Source: Donghicola tyrosinivorans
GTDB taxonomy: Bacteria > Pseudomonadota > Alphaproteobacteria > Rhodobacterales > Rhodobacteraceae
Length of the DNA: 64,000 bases
Assembly (NCBI RefSeq): GCF_003003355.1
Contig: NZ_PVTQ01000002.1
Coordinates: 186,001 to 250,000, forward strand
Direction of reading: 5' to 3'
The notes under the pieces are model-generated. The model was not told the origin of the DNA. It saw nothing but the letters and a program-made list of their open reading frames with translations, and did no database searches. A program made the position numbers and the translations under genes. This document shows positions 7,057 through 26,774 of this stretch, one piece after another. The first letter of the stretch is position 1; every line of letters starts with the position of its first letter.

Positions 7057-8445
7057 TTAGGCGTGGATCGCGCCGTCGCCGCAGGCCAGAGCTGCTTCGC
7101 GGACCGCTTCCGAGTAGGTCGGGTGCGCGTGGCAGGTCAGGGCGATGTCTTCGGCCGAGGCGCCGAATTCCATGGCAACGCAGATCTCGTGGATCAGGTC
7201 GCCCGCCATCGGGCCGATGATGTGGCAGCCAAGGATGCGGTCGGTTTCTTTGTCCGCCAGCAGTTTGACAAAGCCGTCAGCAGCAAAGTTTGCCTTGGCG
7301 CGGCCATTGCCCATGAAGCTGAATTTGCCGACCTTATAGGCGCGGCCTTCGGCTTTCAGTTGCTCTTCGGTCGCGCCGACGCTGCCCACTTCGGGGTGGG
7401 TGTAGATGACGCCGGGGATGACGCCGTAGTTCACGTGGCCATGCTTGCCCGCGATGACTTCGGCGGCGGCCATGCCTTCGTCTTCGGCTTTGTGCGCCAG
7501 CATCGGGCCGGTGATCACGTCGCCGATGGCGTAGATGCCGGGCACGTTGGTCTGCCAGTGGGCGTTGGTTTTGATCTGGCCGCGGTCGGTCATCTCAACG
7601 CCCAGAGCGGCAAGGCCGAGGCCGTCGGTGAAGGGTTTGCGACCAGTGGCCACCAGCACGACATCGGCGTCGAGGGTGTGCTCGCTGTCGTCTTTCTTCA
7701 GCTTGTAGGTGACTTTGGCTTTGGACTTGGTGGTCTCGACGCCCTGAACCGCGGCACCCAGAACGAAGTTCAGGCCCTGTTTTTGCAGCAGTTTCTGGAA
7801 GGCACGGGCGACTTCGGCGTCCTGACCGGGGGTGATTGCATCCATGTACTCGACCACGGTCACCTCAGCGCCGAGGCGCTTGTAGACCGAGCCCAGTTCC
7901 AGACCGATGACGCCAGCGCCGATCACGACCATTTTCTTGGGGATCTTGGGCAGCGACAACGCTCCGGTTGAGGAGACCACGATCTCTTCGTCGATGGTCA
8001 CGCCGGGCAGGGTGGCCACTTCGGAGCCCGAAGCGATGATGATGTTCTTGGCTTCATGGACTTCGTCGCCGACTTTGACCTTGCCCGCTTCGGGGATGGT
8101 GGCCCAGCCTTTGATCCAGTCGACCTTGTTCTTTTTGAACAGGAATTCGATGCCTTTGGTGTTCTGGCCGATGACGTCGCCTTTGTAGGCCTGCATCTGG
8201 TTCCAGTCGACGCTGGGGGATTTGCCCTTGAGGCCCATGGCGGCGAAGTTGTGTTCGGCTTCGTGCAACTGGTGGGTGGCGTGCAGCAGGGCTTTCGAGG
8301 GGATACAGCCCACGTTCAGGCAGGTGCCGCCCAGAGTTTCACGGCCTTCGACACAGGCGGTTTTCAGGCCCAGTTGCGCAGCGCGGATGGCCGAAACGTA
8401 GCCGCCAGGACCAGCGCCGATCACGATCACGTCGTAGGATGCCAT
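7057..8445 (-). CDS. lpd: Dihydrolipoyl dehydrogenase (E3)
   Basis: A 462-residue flavoprotein that reoxidises the lipoyl groups of 2-oxo acid dehydrogenases with NAD+. It has the FAD motif VIGAGPGG (8-15), the redox disulfide C42-C47 in [13 protein letters not shown], a second NAD-binding GxGxxG near residue 180 and the C-terminal catalytic HAHPTYSE. The start is set at the MASYD methionine, preceded by AAGGAA; the open frame runs 27 codons further but that part lies in an intergenic repeat. It is the last gene of the suc block, so it most likely serves as E3 of 2-oxoglutarate dehydrogenase; a pyruvate dehydrogenase E3 would normally be elsewhere. Confidence 0.96.
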
Positions 8446-8470
8446 TTTGAAGTTCCTTTCTGGTGGTGAG

Positions 8471-8524
8471 AGCCGGGGGCGCTGCCCCCGGACCCCCGAG
8501 GTATTTGTGCCAAGCTGAATGGGC
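8471..8524 (+). repeat. Rhodobacteraceae intergenic repeat, copy 1
   Basis: A GC-rich hairpin (CCGGGGGC, GCT loop, GCCCCCGG) is followed by the CCCCCGAGGTATTT core and CCAAGCTGAA. It matches the units at 36728-36800 and 45635-45702 in both parts. It lies between the MAPEG gene and lpd, in the orientation opposite to their transcription. Confidence 0.75.
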
Positions 8525-8550
8525 ATTGGCGGGTTAGGGTTGGCGGCGGC

Positions 8551-9839: not shown

Positions 9840-11348
9840 TTAGATGTCCATCAGCAGGCGACGGGGATCTTCCAGCGCTTCTTTGACGCGCACGAGGAAG
9901 GTCACAGCGCCTTTGCCGTCGACGATACGGTGGTCGTAGGACAGCGCGAGGTACATCATGGGGCGGATTTCGACCTTGCCGTTGATGGCCATCGGACGAT
10001 CCTGGATCTTGTGCATGCCGAGGATACCCGACTGCGGGGGGTTCAGGATCGGCGAGGACATCAGCGAGCCGTAGACGCCGCCGTTCGAAATGGTGAACGA
10101 GCCGCCCTGCATCTCTGCCATGGACAGTTTGCCGTCACGGGCGCGGCGGCCTTTTTCACCGATCTCTTTTTCGATCTCGGCGAAGGACTTCTGGTCCACG
10201 TCACGCAGAACGGGAACAACTAGACCCTGCGGGGTGCCAGCTGCGATGCCCATGTGGACGTAGTTCTTGTAGACCACATCGGTGCCGTCGATCTCGGCGT
10301 TTACCTCGGGCACTTCTTTCAGAGCGTGCACACAGGCTTTGGTGAAGAACGACATGAAGCCCATACGGACGCCGTGCTTTTTCTCGAACGCGTCTTTGTA
10401 CTGGTTCCGGAGCGCCATTACCTCGGTCATGTCCACCTCGTTGTAGGTGGTCAGCATGGCTGCGGTGTTCTGGGCGTCCTTCAGACGGCGCGCGATGGTC
10501 TGGCGCAGACGGGTCATTTTCACGCGCTCTTCGCGTGCTGCATCGTCGGCGTTCGCGGTGCCACGGGGGGCAGCAGCAGGGGCAGGCGCGGCGGTTGCTG
10601 CGGCAGCGACGGCTGCGGCGGCCTTGGCCACGTCTTCTTTCATGATGCGACCGTCACGGCCCGAACCCTGAACCTGAGCGGCGGTCAGACCGGCCTCGGC
10701 CATGGCTTTCTTGGCGGCGGGCGCGTGCTCGACGTCTTTGCCGGTGCTGGCTGCTGCGGGTGCGGCAGCGGCAGGCGCGGCGGCGGGGGCAGCAGCGGCT
10801 GCGCCTTCGCCCGATGCGATCACGCCTAGTTTGCCGCCAGCCTCAACGGTGGTGCCTTCGGCAAACAGGATTTCGGTCAGAACGCCAGCTGCGGGTGCGG
10901 GCACTTCGACCGACACTTTGTCGGTTTCCAGCTCGCACAGCATTTCGTCTTGCGCGACGGTATCGCCGACCTTTTTGAACCAGGTCGAAACGGTGGCTTC
11001 GGTGACGGATTCGCCCAGAGTGGGGACCATGACGTCAACCGATGCAGCCGCCGCAGCAGCAGCGGGAGCCGCTGCGGGCGCCTTGGCTGCGGGTGCGGGC
11101 GCTGCGGCTTCGCCGCTGGCGCTGATGTTGGCCAGCAGAGCGTCAACGCCGACGGTCTCGCCTTCGTTGGCAACGATCTCGGCCAGAACACCGGCTGCGG
11201 GCGAGGGAACCTCGACGGTGACCTTGTCGGTTTCCAGTTCGCACAGCATTTCGTCAGCCTCGACACGGTCGCCGGGCTTTTTGAACCAGGTGGCGACAGT
11301 TGCCTCGGTCACGGATTCACCCAGCGTGGGGACACGGACTTCAGTCAT
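9840..11348 (-). CDS. sucB: Dihydrolipoyllysine succinyltransferase (E2 of 2-oxoglutarate dehydrogenase)
   Basis: 502 residues with two lipoyl domains in tandem (lipoylated lysines K42 and K144, both in ETDKVxVEV), separated and followed by Ala/Pro-rich linkers. A peripheral-subunit-binding domain with [15 protein letters not shown] comes next, then the catalytic acyltransferase domain ending in [13 protein letters not shown] with the active-site His and Asp. Classical E2o has one lipoyl domain, so the duplication is notable although I believe it is common in this family of bacteria. It transfers succinyl groups to CoA in the TCA cycle. It begins 3 nt after sucA. Confidence 0.95.
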
Positions 11349-11351
11349 TGT

Positions 11352-14315
11352 TTAGTTTCCTTCGACTGTCAGCGCTTCGTCGACGAGCGCGGCTTGTTGT
11401 GCTTTGTGTTGCGATGCCAGACCCGTTGCAGGCGATGCGCTGGCGGCGCGGCCGACGTAACGGGGACGGCCATGCTTTGCTTTGATGCGGCCCAGAACCC
11501 ATTCGATGTTGGGTTCGATGAAGGTCCATGCACCCTGGTTCTTGGGTTCTTCCTGACACCAGATCATCTCTGCGCCGGGGAAGCGTTCCAGTTCCTTGAC
11601 CAGCGAGATCGCGGGGAAGGGGTAGAACTGTTCGATACGCAGCAGGTAGACGTCATCGATGCCACGGGCGTCACGCTCTTCCAGCAGGTCGTAGTAGACC
11701 TTGCCCGAACACATGACCACGCGCTTGATCTTGTCGTCCGACACCAGCTGGGTGTCCGAGTTGCCGCGTTCCGCATCGTCCCACAGGACGCGGTGGAAGC
11801 TGGAGCCAGTGGTGAAGTCCTCGGCCTTGCTGATGCACATCTTGTGACGCAGCAGCGATTTCGGGGTCATCAGAACCAGCGGCTTACGGTAGCTGCGGTG
11901 CATCTGGCGACGCAGGATGTGGAAGTAGTTCGCCGGGGTCGAGCAGTTCGCCACGATCCAGTTGTCCTGACCACACATCTGCAGGAAACGCTCCAGACGG
12001 GCCGAGCTGTGCTCGGGGCCCTGACCTTCAAAGCCGTGGGGCAGAAGGCAGACCAGACCCGACATACGCAGCCATTTGCTTTCGCCCGAGCAGATGAACT
12101 GGTCGAACATGATCTGCGCGCCGTTGGCGAAGTCGCCGAACTGGGCTTCCCACATGGTCAGCGCGTTGGGTTCCGCCAGCGAGTAGCCGTATTCGAAGCC
12201 CAGAACCGCGTATTCCGACAGCATCGAGTCGATGACTTCATAGCGGGCCTGACCTTCGCGGATGTTGTTGAGCGGGTAGTAACGCTCTTCCGTGGTCTGG
12301 TCGATGAAGGCCGAGTGACGCTGCGAGAAGGTGCCGCGGGTCGAGTCCTGACCAGCCAGACGAACCGGATAGCCCTCGGTCAGAAGCGAGCCGAACGCCA
12401 GTGCTTCGCCGGTCGCCCAGTCAAAGCCTTCGCCGGTTTCGAACATCTGCTTTTTGGCTTCCAGCTGACGGGCAACGGTCTTGTGGATGTCCACAGTCTC
12501 GGGTGCGTGCACCAGAGACTTGCCGACCTCTGCCATCGTCTCGGGCTTAATGGCGGTTTTGCCGCGCTGGTACTTTTCGCCCTGCTTGTTCAGGTGCGAC
12601 CAGCGGCCATCCAGCCAGTCAGCCTTGTTCGGCTTGAAGGTTTTGCCGGTCTCGAACTCTTCGTTCAGATAGGCTTGGAACTGCGCCTTCATATCCTCGA
12701 TTTCGCCTTCGGGGATCAGGCCGTCCTTGACCAGACGCTCGGTGTAGAGCGAAAGGGTGGTCTTTTGGGTTTTGATCTTCTTGTACATCTGAGGGTTGGT
12801 GAACATGGGTTCATCCCCCTCGTTGTGACCGAAACGACGGTAGCAGAAGATGTCGATCACCACGTCCTTGTGGAACTTCTGACGGAATTCGGTCGCCACT
12901 TTGGCCGCGTGGACAACAGCCTCGGGGTCGTCGCCGTTCACGTGGAAGATCGGCGCTTCGACCATCAGGGCGATGTCGGTCGGGTAGGGCGAGCTGCGCG
13001 AGAAGTGCGGCGCGGTGGTGAAACCGATCTGGTTGTTCACAACGATATGCATGGTGCCGCCGGTGCGGTGACCGACCAGACCCGACATACCAAAGCATTC
13101 CGCCACAACGCCCTGACCTGCAAAGGCGGCGTCGCCGTGCAGCAGGATCGGCAGAACCTGTTCGCGGGACTTGTCACCCAGCTGTTCCTGCTTGGCGCGG
13201 ACCTTACCTAGAACGACGGGGTTCACCGCCTCAAGGTGCGAGGGGTTCGCGGTCAGCGACAGGTGGACCGAGTTGTCATCGAACGAACGGTCCGACGAAG
13301 CACCAAGGTGGTATTTCACGTCGCCCGAACCATCAACGTCCTCGGGCTTGAAGCTGCCGCCCTGGAATTCGTTGAAGATCGCGCGGTAGGGCTTGTTCAT
13401 CACGTTGGCCAGAACCGACAGACGGCCGCGGTGGGGCATGCCGATGACGATCTCTTTCACACCCAGCGCGCCACCGCGCTTGATGATCTGTTCCATCGCG
13501 GGGATCAGCGATTCACCACCGTCGAGGCCGAAACGCTTGGTGCCCATGTATTTCACGTGCAGGAACTTTTCGAAGCCTTCGGCCTCGACCAGTTTGTTCA
13601 GAATCGCGCGGCGGCCTTCACGGGTGAAGGTGATTTCCTTGCCGTAGCCTTCGATGCGCTCTTTCAGCCAGCTGGACTGCTCGGGGTCCGAGATGTGCAT
13701 GTACTGCAACGCGAAGGTGCCGCAGTAGGTGCGCTTGAGAACGTCAATGATCTGGCGCATCGAGGCGATCTGCAGACCAAGCACGTTGTCGATAAAGATC
13801 GGACGGTCCATGTCGGCTTCGGTGAAGCCGTAGGCATTGGGGTTCAGTTCGGGGTGGGGCTCACGGCCGTGCAGACCCAGCGGGTCCAGGTCGGCGGCCA
13901 GGTGGCCACGAATACGGTAGGCGCGGATCAGCATCAGGGCGCGGATCGAGTCCAGCACTGCGCGCTTGATCGCTTCGTCGGTAACTTCGACGCCTTTTTC
14001 GGCGGCTTTGGCTTTGATCTTGTCGCCAGCGCCTTTGGCTTCTTTGGCCGCTTCGGGCCATTCGCCAGTCAGAGCCCAAACGTTGTCGCCAGCCGGCATC
14101 GGCGGCCAGTCAGTACGGCCCCACGAGGCACCATCGGCCTCTTTCTTGACGTCGACCTCACCATCGCCAAGAGCGGCGAAGAAGGCCTGCCAGGATTCAT
14201 CGACCGAAGAAGGGTCGGTGGCATAACGGGCGTATAGCTGCTCGATGTACTCGGCGTTATGCCCCTGAAGGAAGCTCGAGGCATGGAACTGGTCGTTCGG
14301 GGATTGGTCGGTCAT
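11352..14315 (-). CDS. sucA: 2-oxoglutarate dehydrogenase E1 component
   Basis: 987 residues, full length for SucA. It starts with the short E2-binding N-terminal helix region (SFLQGHNAEYIEQLYARYATD), followed by the thiamine diphosphate-binding core with GMPHRGRLSVLANV and HLEAVNPVV, and ends with the transketolase-type C-terminal domain (EEPKNQGAW). It decarboxylates 2-oxoglutarate and passes the succinyl group to SucB. It is directly followed by sucB. A strong hairpin without a T-run precedes it. Confidence 0.97.
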   Translation of the reverse strand: MTDQSPNDQFHASSFLQGHNAEYIEQLYARYATDPSSVDESWQAFFAALGDGEVDVKKEADGASWGRTDWPPMPAGDNVWALTGEWPEAAKEAKGAGDKIKAKAAEKGVEVTDEAIKRAVLDSIRALMLIRAYRIRGHLAADLDPLGLHGREPHPELNPNAYGFTEADMDRPIFIDNVLGLQIASMRQIIDVLKRTYCGTFALQYMHISDPEQSSWLKERIEGYGKEITFTREGRRAILNKLVEAEGFEKFLHVKYMGTKRFGLDGGESLIPAMEQIIKRGGALGVKEIVIGMPHRGRLSVLANVMNKPYRAIFNEFQGGSFKPEDVDGSGDVKYHLGASSDRSFDDNSVHLSLTANPSHLEAVNPVVLGKVRAKQEQLGDKSREQVLPILLHGDAAFAGQGVVAECFGMSGLVGHRTGGTMHIVVNNQIGFTTAPHFSRSSPYPTDIALMVEAPIFHVNGDDPEAVVHAAKVATEFRQKFHKDVVIDIFCYRRFGHNEGDEPMFTNPQMYKKIKTQKTTLSLYTERLVKDGLIPEGEIEDMKAQFQAYLNEEFETGKTFKPNKADWLDGRWSHLNKQGEKYQRGKTAIKPETMAEVGKSLVHAPETVDIHKTVARQLEAKKQMFETGEGFDWATGEALAFGSLLTEGYPVRLAGQDSTRGTFSQRHSAFIDQTTEERYYPLNNIREGQARYEVIDSMLSEYAVLGFEYGYSLAEPNALTMWEAQFGDFANGAQIMFDQFICSGESKWLRMSGLVCLLPHGFEGQGPEHSSARLERFLQMCGQDNWIVANCSTPANYFHILRRQMHRSYRKPLVLMTPKSLLRHKMCISKAEDFTTGSSFHRVLWDDAERGNSDTQLVSDDKIKRVVMCSGKVYYDLLEERDARGIDDVYLLRIEQFYPFPAISLVKELERFPGAEMIWCQEEPKNQGAWTFIEPNIEWVLGRIKAKHGRPRYVGRAASASPATGLASQHKAQQAALVDEALTVEGN

Positions 14316-14412: not shown

Positions 14413-15300
14413 TTAGCCCAGTTCGATAGCCTTCAGAACGGCTTCGCCCAGGGTTGCGGGGCTATCAGCAACAATGATGCCAGCCGACTTCATGGCTTCG
14501 ATCTTGTCTTCTGCGCCACCTTTGCCGCCTGCGACGATCGCACCGGCGTGACCCATGCGACGGCCCGGAGGGGCGGTGCGGCCCGCGATGAAACCAGCTG
14601 TGGGCTTCCAACGGCCTTTTTTCTTCTGCTCTTTCAGGAACTCGGCTGCTTCTTCTTCAGCCGAACCACCGATCTCACCGATCATGATGATCGATTGGGT
14701 TTCGGGATCGTCCAGGAACATATCCAGCACGTCGATGTGCTCGGTGCCTTTGATGGGGTCGCCACCGATGCCGACTGCGCTGGACTGGCCCAGACCTGCG
14801 TCCGAAGTCTGTTTCACAGCTTCGTAGGTCAGGGTACCCGAGCGCGACACAACGCCGACCGAGCCACGCTTGTGGATGTGGCCGGGCATAATGCCGATTT
14901 TGCAGGCGCCGGGGGTGATGACACCGGGGCAGTTCGGGCCGATCAGGCGCGACTTGCTGTCGATCAGGGCGCGCTTCACCTTCATCATATCCAGAACCGG
15001 GATACCTTCGGTGATGCAGACGATCAGTTCCATTTCCGCGTCGATGGCCTCGAGGATCGAGTCCGCTGCGAACGGCGGGGGAACGTAGATCACGGTCGCG
15101 TTGGCTTCGGTCACGTGCTTTGCTTCGTGAACCGAGTTGAACACGGGCAGGTCCAGATGGGTCTGGCCGCCTTTACCGGGGGTGACGCCGCCGACCATTT
15201 TGGTGCCGTAAGCAATGGCCTGTTCGGTGTGGAAAGTACCCTGCGAGCCGGTCAGGCCCTGACAGATGACTTTGGTGTTTTCGTCGATGAGGACTGCCAT
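14413..15300 (-). CDS. sucD: Succinyl-CoA synthetase alpha subunit
   Basis: 295 residues. It has the CoA-binding Rossmann domain ([14 protein letters not shown]) and the ligase domain with the phosphorylated active-site histidine H251 in [10 protein letters not shown]. With SucC it makes ATP or GTP from succinyl-CoA. It is separated from sucC by a small lipoprotein gene and followed by sucA. Confidence 0.97.
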
Positions 15301-15606: not shown

Positions 15607-16800
15607 TTAACCTTTCACAGCTTTAACAATCTTCTCTGCACCATCACTCAGGTTGTCAGCGGCGATCACATCAAGACCAGAGGTGTTGATGATTTCCTTG
15701 CCCTTTTCTACGTTGGTGCCTTCCAAACGGACAACCAGCGGAACTTTCAGGCCGACTTCCTTAACGGCGGCGATCACGCCCTCGGCGATCACGTCACAAC
15801 GCATGATGCCACCGAAGATGTTAACCAGGATACCCTTAACATTGGGGTCCGAGGTGATGATCTTGAACGCTTCGGTCACTTTCTCTTTGGTGGCGCCGCC
15901 ACCAACGTCGAGGAAGTTTGCGGGCTCAGCGCCGTAGAGTTTGATGATGTCCATGGTGGCCATCGCCAGACCTGCGCCGTTCACCATGCAGCCGATCTCG
16001 CCGTCCAGCGCGATGTAGTTCAGGTCGAACTTCGAAGCTGCCAGTTCTTTGGGATCTTCTTCGGTTTCGTCGCGCAGAGCTGCAACATCTGCGTGGCGGT
16101 AGACAGCGTTGCCGTCAAAGCCAAGCTTGGCGTCCAGCACCTTGAGGTTGCCGTCTTCCATGACGATCAGCGGGTTAATCTCCAGCATCTCCATGTCCTT
16201 CTCGACGAAGGCGGTGTAGAGCTGGCCCATCAGTTTCACGCACTGCTTGACCTGACCACCTTCCAGACCCAGGGCGAACGCGATGCGACGGCCGTGGTAG
16301 GGCTGGTAGCCGGTTGCAGGGTCAACCGAGAACGACAGGATCTTTTCGGGGGTCGACGCTGCGACTTCCTCGATGTCCATACCGCCTTCGGTCGAGCAGA
16401 CAAAGCTGATGCGGCTGCTGACGCGGTCGACCAGAAGGGCAAGGTACAGCTCGCGGCTGATGTCCGAACCATCTTCGATGTAGATGCGGTTCACCTGCTT
16501 GCCTGCGGGGCCGGTCTGGTGGGTAACCAGAGTACGACCCAGCATCTTCTTGGCTTCTTCCGCAGCCTCTTCGACCGACTTGGCAAGGCGGACACCGCCC
16601 TTTTCGCCAGCGTCAGCTTCTTTGAACTTGCCTTTGCCACGGCCACCGGCGTGGATCTGAGCTTTCACAACCCACAGGGGGCCGTCCAGCTCGCCAGCGG
16701 CAGTTTTGGCGTCTTCGGCCTTGAGCACGACGCGGCCGTCGCTGACCGGTGCGCCGTATTCGCGCAGCAGAGCCTTGGCCTGATATTCGTGGATGTTCAT
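15607..16800 (-). CDS. sucC: Succinyl-CoA synthetase beta subunit
   Basis: 397 residues, ADP-forming type. The N-terminal ATP-grasp domain ([33 protein letters not shown]) is followed by the C-terminal ligase domain ([17 protein letters not shown]). It supplies the nucleotide-binding subunit of succinyl-CoA synthetase. It is the first gene of the suc block, with AGG about 5 nt before the ATG and a tandem pair of palindromic operators upstream. Confidence 0.97.
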
Positions 16801-17152
16801 GGACCTGTCCCATCTTGCTGAAATTCCTGACCTGTATACGCGCCAGATTCCTGCGGATTAAGACAAAACTGCGCGGGCAGGCGTGAAATAGCCGATTTTC
16901 TGGCATTTGTGATCACAGGCTTAAAACGTGTGATCACAAATCGGGAGCCGCCTGAGTCTGTTCGAGAATATGTTACCGCGAACGGGGGCGAGTCGGCCTT
17001 TGCATCCACAAGAATGGCGATTCACATACGATCGGATTGTTGGCTATATCCACCGTGTGCCGTCGGGTATGCGGTGGTTCTATAGTTTCAGTGGCCTTGC
17101 GCAAAGGCCAAAAGCCAGCTTGACTGTAGGTAAGGGTAACGTAGGCAGGACC
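16801..17152. other. Divergent intergenic region, sucC / glycosyltransferase
   Basis: 352 bases with no convincing gene. It holds the sucC leader, the paired TGTGATCACA sites, and about 200 bases in which the frame of the plus-strand glycosyltransferase is open but lacks protein-like content. I see no clear -10/-35 promoter for sucC. Confidence 0.6.
16908..16938. promoter_or_regulatory. Paired TGTGATCACA operators upstream of sucC
   Basis: Two perfect 10-bp palindromes TGTGATCACA, at 16908-16917 and 16929-16938, lie 21 bp apart centre to centre, two helical turns. The near site is about 110 nt upstream of the sucC start. The same pair with the same spacing occurs in front of sdhC. They have no gap between half-sites, unlike the CRP/FNR family (TGTGA-N6-TCACA). 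The binding protein is not identified. Confidence 0.7.
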
Positions 17153-18256: not shown

Positions 18257-19339
<1,083 letters not shown>

Positions 19340-22891: not shown

Positions 22892-22922
22892 TGTGATCAC
22901 GCTTATTGCGGGCGTGATCACA
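22892..22922. promoter_or_regulatory. Paired TGTGATCACA-like operators upstream of sdhC
   Basis: TGTGATCACG (22892-22901) and CGTGATCACA (22913-22922) are 21 bp apart centre to centre, the same spacing as the pair before sucC. Each differs from the perfect palindrome at one outer base. They lie 9 nt after mch and about 130 nt before sdhC. Confidence 0.68.
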
Positions 22923-22968: not shown

Positions 22969-22996
22969 GTGACAGCACGAAAAAAATCACTATCAC
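22969..22996 (+). promoter_or_regulatory. Possible sdh promoter
   Basis: GTGACA (22969-22974), 16 bp, then TATCAC (22991-22996), a fair match to a housekeeping promoter. It is downstream of the paired palindromes, which would then lie near -80 to -110, a position more usual for activation. Weak by eye. Confidence 0.3.
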
Positions 22997-23053: not shown

Positions 23054-23446
23054 ATGGCTGATGTGAACCGCGGCAACCGCCCGCTCTCACCGCATCTGAC
23101 GATCTATCGCTTGCCGATCACTGCGATTACGTCGATTCTTGTCCGTATCACCGGAAACGCATTGCTGGTTGCAGCACTGATGACCGTTTGGTGGTTCCTG
23201 GCGGCCGCTTCTGGCCCCGAATACTACGAATTCGCCAACGGCGTGATCACAAGCTGGTTTGGTGATCTGGTCATGGCCCTGTCGGTGCTGGGCCTTTGGT
23301 ACCACACCCTTGGCGGCGTGCGTCACCTGATCTGGGACCAGGTCATCGGTCTGGACATCGTAACCGCTGAAAGCCTGAGCTGGGCTGTGATCATCGGGTC
23401 TGTAGCACTGACTGTGCTGACCTGGGTCATCATGCTGGTCGCATAA
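23054..23446 (+). CDS. sdhC: Succinate dehydrogenase cytochrome b556 subunit
   Basis: 130 residues with three membrane helices. The family motif RPLSPHLTIYR is at the N-terminus and the haem-ligand region HTLGGVRHLIWD is after residue 80. It anchors the SdhAB dimer and binds haem b and quinone. It is the first gene of the sdh operon, with AAGGAAG upstream. Confidence 0.95.
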   Translation: MADVNRGNRPLSPHLTIYRLPITAITSILVRITGNALLVAALMTVWWFLAAASGPEYYEFANGVITSWFGDLVMALSVLGLWYHTLGGVRHLIWDQVIGLDIVTAESLSWAVIIGSVALTVLTWVIMLVA

Positions 23447-23460
23447 GAGGAGAGCGTCAG

Positions 23461-23832
23461 ATGGCATATCTTACCCCCCGCAAGCGCGCGACAGGCATGG
23501 GCTCGGCCAAATCGGGCGTCGAGCATTTCTGGAACATGAAGGTCAGCTCGATCGGTCTGCTGATCCTGGTTCCCTTGTTCCTGTTCACTTTTGGTCCTGC
23601 TCTTGGCAGCAGCTATGAGGAAATGGTTGCCTATTACCAGCATCCGTTCCCCGCGATCGTTGCGATCCTGACCCTGAGTGTCGGTTTCATGCACTTCAAG
23701 AACGGCTTTCAGGTCCTGATCGAGGACTACGTCCACGGTGCTGCTGGCCAGTACTCGATCATTGCGATGAACTGCCTGTGCTACGCCGCTGCGGCGACCG
23801 GCATCTTCTCGATCATCCGCATCGCACTTTAA
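23461..23832 (+). CDS. sdhD: Succinate dehydrogenase membrane anchor subunit
   Basis: 123 residues, three membrane helices. It contains MHFKNGFQVLIEDYVHG, the conserved haem and quinone-site block of alphaproteobacterial SdhD. The gene is 14 nt after sdhC and 15 nt before sdhA. Confidence 0.94.
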   Translation: MAYLTPRKRATGMGSAKSGVEHFWNMKVSSIGLLILVPLFLFTFGPALGSSYEEMVAYYQHPFPAIVAILTLSVGFMHFKNGFQVLIEDYVHGAAGQYSIIAMNCLCYAAAATGIFSIIRIAL

Positions 23833-23847
23833 TTCGGAGACGCGCAG

Positions 23848-25653
23848 ATGGCTGCATACGAATACGAAACCCACGAATATGACGTGGTGGTGGTCGGCGC
23901 TGGTGGCGCGGGCCTGCGTGCAACCCTTGGCATGGCCGAACAGGGCCTGCGCACCGCTTGTGTGACCAAGGTTTTCCCGACCCGTTCGCACACTGTTGCG
24001 GCACAGGGCGGTATTGCTGCTTCGCTGGGGAACATGGGTCCCGACAGCTGGCAGTGGCACATGTACGACACCGTAAAAGGTTCGGACTGGCTGGGTGACA
24101 CCGACGCGATGGAATACCTCGCACGGGAAGCGCCCGCCGCGGTCTATGAGCTGGAGCACTATGGCGTGCCCTTCAGCCGGACCGAAGAAGGCAAAATCTA
24201 CCAGCGTCCTTTCGGTGGCCACACCACCGAATTCGGCGAAGGCCCCGCTGTGCAGCGTACCTGCGCGGCTGCGGACCGGACCGGTCACGCGATCCTGCAC
24301 ACCCTCTACGGCCAGTCGGTCAAGAACAACGCGGAATTCTTCATTGAATACTTCGCGCTGGACCTGCTGATGTCCGATGATGGCGTCTGCACCGGTGTTG
24401 TCTGCTGGAAGCTGGACGACGGTACCATGCACGTCTTCAACGCGAAGATGGTTGTTCTGGCGACCGGCGGTTATGGCCGTGCCTACTTCAGCGCGACTTC
24501 GGCCCACACCTGCACCGGTGACGGTGGCGGTATGGTGGCCCGCGCAGGTCTGCCCCTGCAGGACATGGAATTCGTTCAGTTCCACCCCACCGGTATCTAC
24601 GGCGCAGGCTGTCTGATCACCGAAGGTGCGCGTGGCGAAGGCGGTTACCTGACCAACAGCCAGGGCGAGCGCTTCATGGAGCGTTACGCACCGAACTACA
24701 AAGACCTTGCGCCGCGTGACTACGTTTCGCGTTGTATGACCATGGAAATCCGCGAAGGCCGCGGTGTGGGTTCTGAAGGGGATCACATCCACCTGAACCT
24801 GTCGCACCTGCCGCCCGAGGCGCTGCAGCTGCGTCTGCCCGGTATCTCGGAATCGGCTCGCATCTTTGCTGGCGTAGACGTCACCAAAGAGCCGATCCCC
24901 GTTATCCCGACCGTGCACTACAACATGGGCGGTATTCCGACCAACTACTGGGGCGAAGTGCTGAACCCGACCGCCGAAGACCCGACCGCAGTGGTCCCCG
25001 GTCTGATGGCTGTGGGCGAAGCGGGCTGTGCCTCGGTTCACGGTGCAAACCGTCTGGGCTCGAACTCGCTGATCGACCTCGTGGTCTTTGGCCGCGCTGC
25101 CGCGATCCGCGCTGGCGAGGTTGTCGACCGCGCCGCATCGATCCCTGCGACCAACACCGCTCAGGTCGACAAGTGCTTCGAGCGCTTCGACAGCCTGCGC
25201 AATGCAACCGGTGCAATCCCGACCGCAGACCTGCGTCTGGAAATGCAGAAGACCATGCAGCGTGACGCGGCGGTCTTCCGTACCTCGGAAACCCTGTCGC
25301 AGGGCGTGACCGACATGACGGCGATTGCTGGCAAGATGGGCGATCTGAAGGTCACCGACCGTAGCCTGGTCTGGAACACCGACCTGATGGAAACGCTGGA
25401 GCTGACCAACCTGATGCCGAACGCGCTGGCCACCATCGTTGGTGCCGAAGCCCGTAAGGAATCGCGCGGCGCCCACGCCCATGAGGATTTCACCAACCGC
25501 GACGACGAAAACTGGCGTGTACACACCGTCAGCCGCGTCGAAGGCAACAAGGTGGATCTGTCCTACCGTCCCGTAATCGTTGATCCGCTGACCAACGAAG
25601 ATCAGGGCGGCATCGAGCTGAAGAAGATCGCACCCAAGGCGCGGACTTTCTAA
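23848..25653 (+). CDS. sdhA: Succinate dehydrogenase flavoprotein subunit
   Basis: 601 residues. It has the FAD-binding [11 protein letters not shown], the covalent flavin histidine in [11 protein letters not shown], the active-site region with [22 protein letters not shown] and the C-terminal domain with the [11 protein letters not shown] block. It oxidises succinate to fumarate. The stop overlaps the start of a small lipoprotein gene, TAATG. Confidence 0.97.
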
Positions 25654-25994: not shown

Positions 25995-26774
25995 ATGGTT
26001 GAATTGGCTCTGCCCAAGAATAGCCGTATCACCACAGGCAAAACCTGGCCCAAGCCCGAGGGTGCGACCAACCTGCGCACAGTGCAGATTTATCGCTGGA
26101 ACCCCGACGACGGTCAGAACCCGCGCGTCGATACGTACTTTGTGGACATGGACACCTGTGGTCCGATGGTTCTGGACGTTCTGATCAAGATCAAGAACGA
26201 GATGGACCCCACGCTGACCTTCCGTCGTTCGTGCCGTGAAGGCATCTGTGGCTCGTGCGCCATGAACATCGACGGGATCAACACGCTGGCCTGTATCTAC
26301 GGTCTGGATGAGATCAAAGGCGACGTGAAGATCTACCCGCTGCCGCACATGCCGGTGGTGAAGGACCTTGTTCCGGATCTGACCCACTTCTACGCACAGC
26401 ACGCCAGCATCATGCCGTGGCTGGAAACCAAGACCAACACTCCCAAGAAAGAGTGGAAGCAGTCGATCGAAGATCGCGAAAAGCTGGATGGTCTGTATGA
26501 GTGCGTTATGTGCGCCTGCTGCTCGACCAGCTGCCCCAGCTACTGGTGGAACGGCGATCGGTACCTCGGCCCTGCCGCACTGCTGCACGCCTACCGCTGG
26601 CTGATCGACAGCCGCGATGAGGCCACCGGCGAACGTCTGGACAACCTTGAAGACCCCTTCAAGCTGTACCGCTGCCACACCATCATGAACTGTGCAAAAA
26701 CTTGCCCCAAGGGTCTGAACCCTGCAAAGGCCATTGCATCGATCAAGAAGATGATGGTCGACCGCGCTTACTAA
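25995..26774 (+). CDS. sdhB: Succinate dehydrogenase iron-sulfur subunit
   Basis: 259 residues with the cysteines for three Fe-S clusters: [12 protein letters not shown] plus a following Cys (2Fe-2S), [12 protein letters not shown] (4Fe-4S) and [14 protein letters not shown] (3Fe-4S with the last 4Fe-4S ligand). It passes electrons from the flavin to quinone. AGAGGAGA precedes the ATG. A terminator follows. Confidence 0.97.

Follow-up and report, generated by a model that had tools for sequence, protein, structure and literature searches.

Which protein, if any, acts at the paired palindromes that precede the tricarboxylic acid (TCA) cycle genes sucC and sdhC in Donghicola tyrosinivorans? The DNA analyzed, referred to as the window, is a stretch of 64,000 nucleotides (contig NZ_PVTQ01000002.1, positions 186,001 to 250,000). 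The pairs are predicted to be double operators of an orthologue of AkgR, an activator of the GntR/FCD family, an interpretation derived from sequence comparison to which we assign a probability of roughly 85%.

Paired palindromes in the window and in the genome

Two copies of the palindrome TGTGATCACA, 21 bp apart, were located at 16908-16917 and 16929-16938, upstream of sucC on the minus strand. Upstream of sdhC on the plus strand (start at 23054), the palindromes TGTGATCACG (22892-22901) and CGTGATCACA (22913-22922) are again 21 bp apart. The word GTGATCAC occurs nine times in the window, against 1.11 copies expected, with all five unpaired copies (7511, 19906, 23243, 40261, and 54604) lying within listed open reading frames (ORFs). 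A scan of the window for GTGATCAC-N13-GTGATCAC with up to three mismatches returned exactly two matches, both perfect, one upstream of sucC and one upstream of sdhC; 0.30 matches were expected at three mismatches, and two or more such loose matches arose in 4 of 100 shuffles of the window. Across the 4.68-Mb genome, three perfect pairs were identified, at sucC, sdhC, and fumC, the last (G000:C14:88863-88891) located 109 bp upstream of its gene, while the remaining 10 matches all carried two mismatches.

The preliminary description of this DNA had reported tandem sucC palindromes at a fixed 21-bp spacing (16908-16938), a near-perfect sdhC pair of identical spacing (22892-22922), and single copies of the word inside genes; the two pairs proved exact, and the unpaired copies lie where it had placed them. 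It had also confined the paired arrangement to these two TCA promoters, which is accurate for the window but not for the genome, where a third perfect pair stands at fumC. Other perfect pairs in the genome being limited to fumC, the possibility that it had raised of equally frequent pairs at unrelated positions does not apply. Its view that a gapless palindrome does not suit CRP or FNR was upheld: CRP half-sites (TGTGA/TCACA) are 6 bp apart and those of FNR (TTGAT/ATCAA) 4 bp apart, whereas the half-sites abut in both window pairs, and these regulators were set aside.

Distribution of the pairs among relatives

Among 61 relatives scanned, the 21-bp pair (up to one mismatch) was present in 31 of the 37 genomes from the same family, one of these matches (in G007) being due to chance, and in none of the 24 genomes from other alphaproteobacterial families. 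In a larger sample of 160 Rhodobacteraceae genomes, each at least 90% complete, 140 harbored the 21-bp pair (up to one mismatch, by pattern), and seven more carried a 20-bp version upstream of sucC (L261, L262, L263, L266, L267, L270, and L271). A reversed control pattern had no match in either set.

A scan of public genome contigs returned at least 120 stretches carrying pairs. Among the matches listed, the pair lay upstream of sucC or sdhC in 95 of 120 stretches, most of which were labelled Rhodobacteraceae or a genus placed there, with some bearing broader or other labels. The other 25 listed stretches comprised 21 from other taxa, two at stretch edges, and two from Rhodobacteraceae in other settings. 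Separately, a Sphingobacterium stretch (L115, 2362-2642) contained GTGATCAC-like words repeating at 21 bp, away from any assigned TCA promoter.

With identical promoters collapsed, 209 distinct pair promoters (up to one mismatch) were obtained, 111 of sucC, 94 of sdhC, and four of fumC, the last from this genome, two congeners, and one other genus. Left out of these counts were 35 unassigned pair positions in 28 loci, namely the 21 contig loci from other taxa, two edges (L049 and L080), two other settings (L074 and L132), a second site at an edge (L076), a contig end (L294), and a site upstream of sucA (L333). This last pair (G194:C4:92532-94360) lies between mdh and sucA, at another TCA operon; sucCD may have been relocated or lost there while the site remained with the rest of the operon.

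The sucC and sdhC sets share one consensus, TTTGTGATCACA-N11-TGTGATCACAAA, with the flanking bases outside the pair better conserved than those inside. Among contig loci selected for a pair somewhere, of which the few selected via the other gene are informative and nine show both regions, all 58 readable sucC upstream regions had a pair, and 41 of the 45 sdhC upstream regions readable regardless of spacing had a perfect 21-bp pair as their best. The remaining four sdhC regions included one with a one-mismatch pair, one with a perfect 55-bp pair as well as a one-mismatch 21-bp pair, and two with none. The pairs have thus been kept upstream of sucC and sdhC in relatives, as the preliminary description had anticipated.

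This distribution bears on whether a regulator is needed at all. The palindrome includes GATC and occurs singly in genes, as might be expected of a generic feature of such words (e.g., methylation marks) or of chance repetition; however, the strict pairing at the same operons across the family, the lack of the 21-bp pair in the 24 genomes of other families, the empty reversed control, and the fact that pairs are not equally frequent elsewhere in this genome leave such an explanation with next to no probability.

A candidate regulator and its co-occurrence with the pairs

A candidate for binding the word is known from Rhodobacter sphaeroides under the designations AkgR and RSP_0981, which we take to be the same protein. 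In the parts of the cited reports accessible to us, GTGATCAC is given as a motif bound by AkgR, an activator of the GntR family (PMC6365646), and RSP_0981, a GntR regulator, is predicted by network reconstruction to control sucCD, sdh, and sucAB (PMC4344238). The D. tyrosinivorans genome has 27 GntR genes above the cut-off. The candidate akgR (L198; G000:C2:45767-46420) encodes a protein of 218 amino acids and lies on the same contig as the window pairs, 157 to 163 kb away. Its product has an N-terminal GntR winged helix (PF00392, E = 6.5e-15) and a C-terminal FCD domain of the FadR type (PF07729, E = 2.9e-18), and its best match among solved structures is McbR (4p9f, E = 1.3e-22).

In Fertoeibacter niger, a counterpart sharing 73% identity is encoded about 2 kb beyond sdhB, and in Defluviimonas another is about 10 kb away from the sucC pair; these positions near sdh and sucC agree with RSP_0981, RSP_0974-6, and RSP_0967 being closely numbered loci. 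L198 is the likely AkgR orthologue, and three links join it to the word: co-occurrence, its own promoter, and targets matching those predicted for RSP_0981. Comparison of the 27 GntR proteins with the fetched site loci (L014-L162, mostly 3 to 8 kb) gave no match at E ≤ 1e-8, indicating that within those stretches the regulator is usually not beside its targets. By eye, the neighbors of akgR (L198 649-1419 and 2167-3129; G000:C2, about 45 to 47 kb) are an ORF resembling a zinc-dependent hydrolase and a facing gene resembling that of the acetyl-CoA carboxylase alpha subunit.

Using a threshold of E ≤ 1e-79, an akgR orthologue was identified in 144 of the 160 family genomes. Both akgR and the 21-bp pair were present in 136, akgR only in eight, the pair only in four, and neither in 12 (odds ratio, 51; p = 5e-10), these being uncorrected counts of related genomes with no correction for the tree. 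In 50 of the 136 the pair was confirmed by location upstream of a TCA gene, and in the others by pattern alone. Seven of the eight genomes with akgR only have the 20-bp sucC pair, while sucC of the eighth, G093, is truncated, making this genome not assessable. G007 and G130, two of the genomes with a pair only, have no pair upstream of sucC, and their matches look like chance. After these corrections, 143 of the 145 paired genomes and none of the 14 pairless ones contained akgR, where the sucC upstream region was inspected in 12 of the 14 (not in G143 or G189) and 20-bp sdhC pairs lay outside the search. Beyond the 160, G001, G003, G025, G031, and G036 (a weaker match, at 49% identity) have both akgR and pairs, G011 and G024 have neither a good akgR match nor pairs, and the 24 genomes of other families contain no akgR match better than 3.8e-30.

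The genome also encodes a paralogue, L203 (G000:C12:46266-46442), a GntR protein about 40% identical to the AkgR counterparts, with no GTGATCAC upstream. Such a protein could bind the pairs alone or share the sites with AkgR, since it is close enough to recognize a similar word, and second matches occur in many of the 160 genomes. Against this, several paired genomes (e.g., G009, G018, and G019) have akgR as their only match at E ≤ 1e-30 with all candidates scored, and the word is missing from the L203 locus, making a role for another GntR protein quite improbable.

A single palindrome upstream of akgR

In all 30 of the best-scoring akgR orthologues, a perfect GTGATCAC immediately precedes the start region. 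In 29 of the 30, [CT]TGAC begins exactly 18 bp before this self-site, which places the right half of the palindrome at the expected -10, and in 29 an ATG follows 8 to 11 bp after it. No second word with up to one mismatch was found 19 to 22 bp from the self-site in these 30, and across the 50 orthologues examined, 41 have a lone GTGATCAC self-site at the -10 position. Of 26 GntR loci in D. tyrosinivorans, a set from which L192 was excluded because a contig ends within it, L198 alone carries the word ahead of its GntR domain. A self-site at the -10 with an ATG so close behind it predicts self-repression and a leaderless akgR message.

Helical register between the pairs and the promoters

Features of the sucC and sdhC regions are given below by position in the window.

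16908-16917, no strand: sucC-proximal palindrome TGTGATCACA
16929-16938, no strand: sucC-distal palindrome TGTGATCACA, 21 bp from the proximal one
16857-16862, minus strand: putative sucC -35, CTTAAT, read from the sequence, at an offset of 75 bp from the distal GTGATCAC (counted from its first base)
16833-16838, minus strand: putative sucC -10, TATACA, read from the sequence
15607-16800, minus strand: sucC, succinate-CoA ligase beta subunit (NCBIfam NF001913, E = 1.7e-177)
14413-15300, minus strand: sucD
11352-14315, minus strand: sucA, 2-oxoglutarate dehydrogenase E1
9840-11348, minus strand: sucB
7057-8526, minus strand: lpd, dihydrolipoyl dehydrogenase, further downstream on the same strand and a putative member of the operon
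22892-22901, no strand: sdhC-distal palindrome TGTGATCACG
22913-22922, no strand: sdhC-proximal palindrome CGTGATCACA
22969-22974, plus strand: putative sdhC -35, GTGACA, at an offset of 76 bp from the distal GTGATCAC (counted from its first base)
22991-22996, plus strand: putative sdhC -10, TATCAC, read from the sequence
23054-23446, plus strand: sdhC (TIGR02970, E = 8.1e-34)
23461-23832, plus strand: probable sdhD, by position only, with no NCBIfam match at E ≤ 1e-30
23848-25653, plus strand: sdhA (TIGR01816)
25995-26774, plus strand: sdhB (NF004616, E = 2.1e-115)

A gene resembling glycosyltransferase family 2 (PF13704; 16970-18178, plus strand) sits between sucC and mdh (18257-19228, minus strand); mdh and sucC are often neighbors in alphaproteobacteria.

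A -35-like [GT]TGAC was found in 84 of the 94 sdhC promoters and was unique in 75, on which the phase test was performed, 10 promoters without the motif and nine with several being left out. With the first base of the distal GTGATCAC as origin, the -35 offsets were 65 (one promoter), 76 to 79 (six), 86 to 89 (57), 97 to 99 (six), 107 to 109 (four), and 243 (one), giving clusters spaced 10 to 11.5 bp, with the D. tyrosinivorans promoter at 76. At a period of 10.5 bp, the resultant length was 0.89 from pair to -35, a value partly owed to the large modal cluster, 0.11 from pair to ATG, and 0.08 from -35 to ATG. In the 17 nonmodal cases (offset 243 left out), it was 0.86 from pair to -35 versus 0.08 from pair to ATG; none of 20,000 random draws reached as high a value, and p was 0.00045 when each distinct offset was counted once.

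Across the 111 sucC promoters, 40 of 66 CCNTT[TCA] matches have their TT at offset 75 to 77, and 24 of 29 strict -10 matches, found in 27 of these promoters, are at offset 99 to 101. The fumC promoter of D. tyrosinivorans has TTGCGA at 77 and GTAAAC at 99. Both sucC and this fumC share the sdhC register, with the distance shortened by one turn relative to the modal sdhC. The distance from pair to promoter thus changes by whole turns on the same face, as if imposed by an upstream activator touching RNA polymerase, and steps of about 10.5 bp to the -35, with none to the start codon, favor activation from one helix face.

The same geometry bears on the sign of control, as AkgR might instead bind the pairs and repress sucC and sdhC through a loop or a roadblock. 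Many GntR proteins are repressors, and the self-site of akgR is positioned like that of a repressor, but the pairs stand in register with the -35 and far upstream of it, at a distance from which simple repressors do not work. AkgR is, moreover, called an activator in the accessible part of the published account (PMC6365646), and repression of the two operons appears unlikely.

Proposed mechanism

If the pairs are double operators of the AkgR orthologue, one AkgR dimer would occupy each gapless GTGATCAC. The two dimers, separated by about two helical turns (21 bp or, in some genomes, 20 bp), would hold each other on one face, a cooperativity suggested by the fixed 20- or 21-bp distance. The distal word, counted from its first base, is about 65 to 110 bp from the -35, and the dimers could contact RNA polymerase from there and so enhance transcription from the sucCD(AB-lpd) and sdhCDAB promoters and, within this genus, from that of fumC. 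On the lone palindrome at its own -10, AkgR would block akgR. Two upstream copies would then activate, and a single copy lying on the promoter would make the regulator limit itself. We are inclined, with some reserve, to extend this to a general rule in which the architecture would encode the sign of regulation, two phased palindromes activating the TCA segment and a palindrome over the regulator's own -10, with a leaderless message, repressing; the rule would be kept across most of the sampled Rhodobacteraceae and missing where the regulator is missing.

The preliminary description had envisaged one regulator, neither CRP nor FNR, binding cooperatively on one helix face to set the succinyl-CoA to fumarate segment of the TCA cycle. 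The 20-bp variant, also about two turns, and the sdhC -35 in register with the pair agree with the first part of this proposal. The second part is supported by the conservation of the sucC and sdhC pairs in relatives. Beyond the reach of that description were the publication of the word and of the likely regulator, AkgR, and the pair at fumC.

Several observations weigh against this interpretation. The phasing counts, uncorrected for ancestry, may include its effects, and promoter elements and transcription starts were assigned by pattern or by eye; the orthology of L198 with AkgR rests on gene position, family, and co-occurrence. In G022 and G142, pairs are present and no akgR was found, both assemblies being fragmented (about 210 and 320 contigs, respectively). 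A control gene, represented by a 174-amino-acid part of another GntR protein (L179; E < 1e-60) and present in 120 of the 160 genomes, was also associated with the pairs, at an odds ratio of 10 uncorrected, rising to about 60 once its table was corrected like that of akgR (119 of 145 versus 1 of 14), and the joint absence of akgR and the control from pairless genomes indicates that shared ancestry explains much of the co-occurrence. The self-site was present in 11 and missing from nine of 20 further, mostly the weakest, akgR orthologues, while five of the 30 best (L216, L219, L221, L225, and L227) have a two-mismatch second word 19 to 20 bp from it, such that its solitary state is not absolute and the second word is perhaps the faint second half of a pair. 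As for the choice between the two GntR genes, 2 of the 145 paired genomes lacked akgR and 26 lacked the control (p = 1e-6), and this rarer absence singles out akgR.

Comparison with known systems

Three elements of this system are already known, namely its word, its regulator, and its main targets. A literature search for TGTGATCACA returned nothing on TCA regulation, as judged by titles and abstract openings. The paired rule, the -35 register, the self-site, the finding that pairs and regulator are missing from the same genomes, and the fumC site were not found in the literature searched, and the primary AkgR paper may report some of them. Together they would offer a family-wide, testable rule for the control of a central respiratory segment in common bacteria, one that names the protein and predicts which genomes have lost the circuit. 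The one-turn steps among natural promoters amount to a natural experiment on activator-polymerase geometry in the GntR/FCD family, which is better known for repressors.

Two other sets of regulators were considered and set aside. CceR (RSP_1663), a LacI-family regulator of central carbon metabolism, is comparable in its predicted control of sdh and mdh in R. sphaeroides but recognizes an inverted repeat, GTT-N6-8-AAC (PMC4344238), which differs from GTGATCAC; in Paracoccus denitrificans, the CceR regulon, as presented in the portion of the report available, excludes succinate dehydrogenase, 2-oxoglutarate dehydrogenase, and fumarase (PMC11323563). RedB/FnrL are described in the available text as acting indirectly on sdh, suc, and fumC (PMC9603517).

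A nearer parallel is PS417_07240 of Pseudomonas simiae, a GntR-like protein 32% identical to AkgR, for which a GTGATCAC site was proposed in front of the gene encoding it, the first of a cluster; its target is sugar-acid (deoxyribonate) catabolism rather than the TCA cycle, and the accessible part of the paper mentions no pair (PMC6365646). The closest known system is the AkgR regulon of R. sphaeroides, which corresponds to the one described here in the word GTGATCAC (PMC6365646), in the targets sucCD, sucAB, and sdh (PMC4344238), in the GntR family of the regulator, and in the matching gene neighborhood in a relative, and from which the present system differs by the addition of fumC in this genus.
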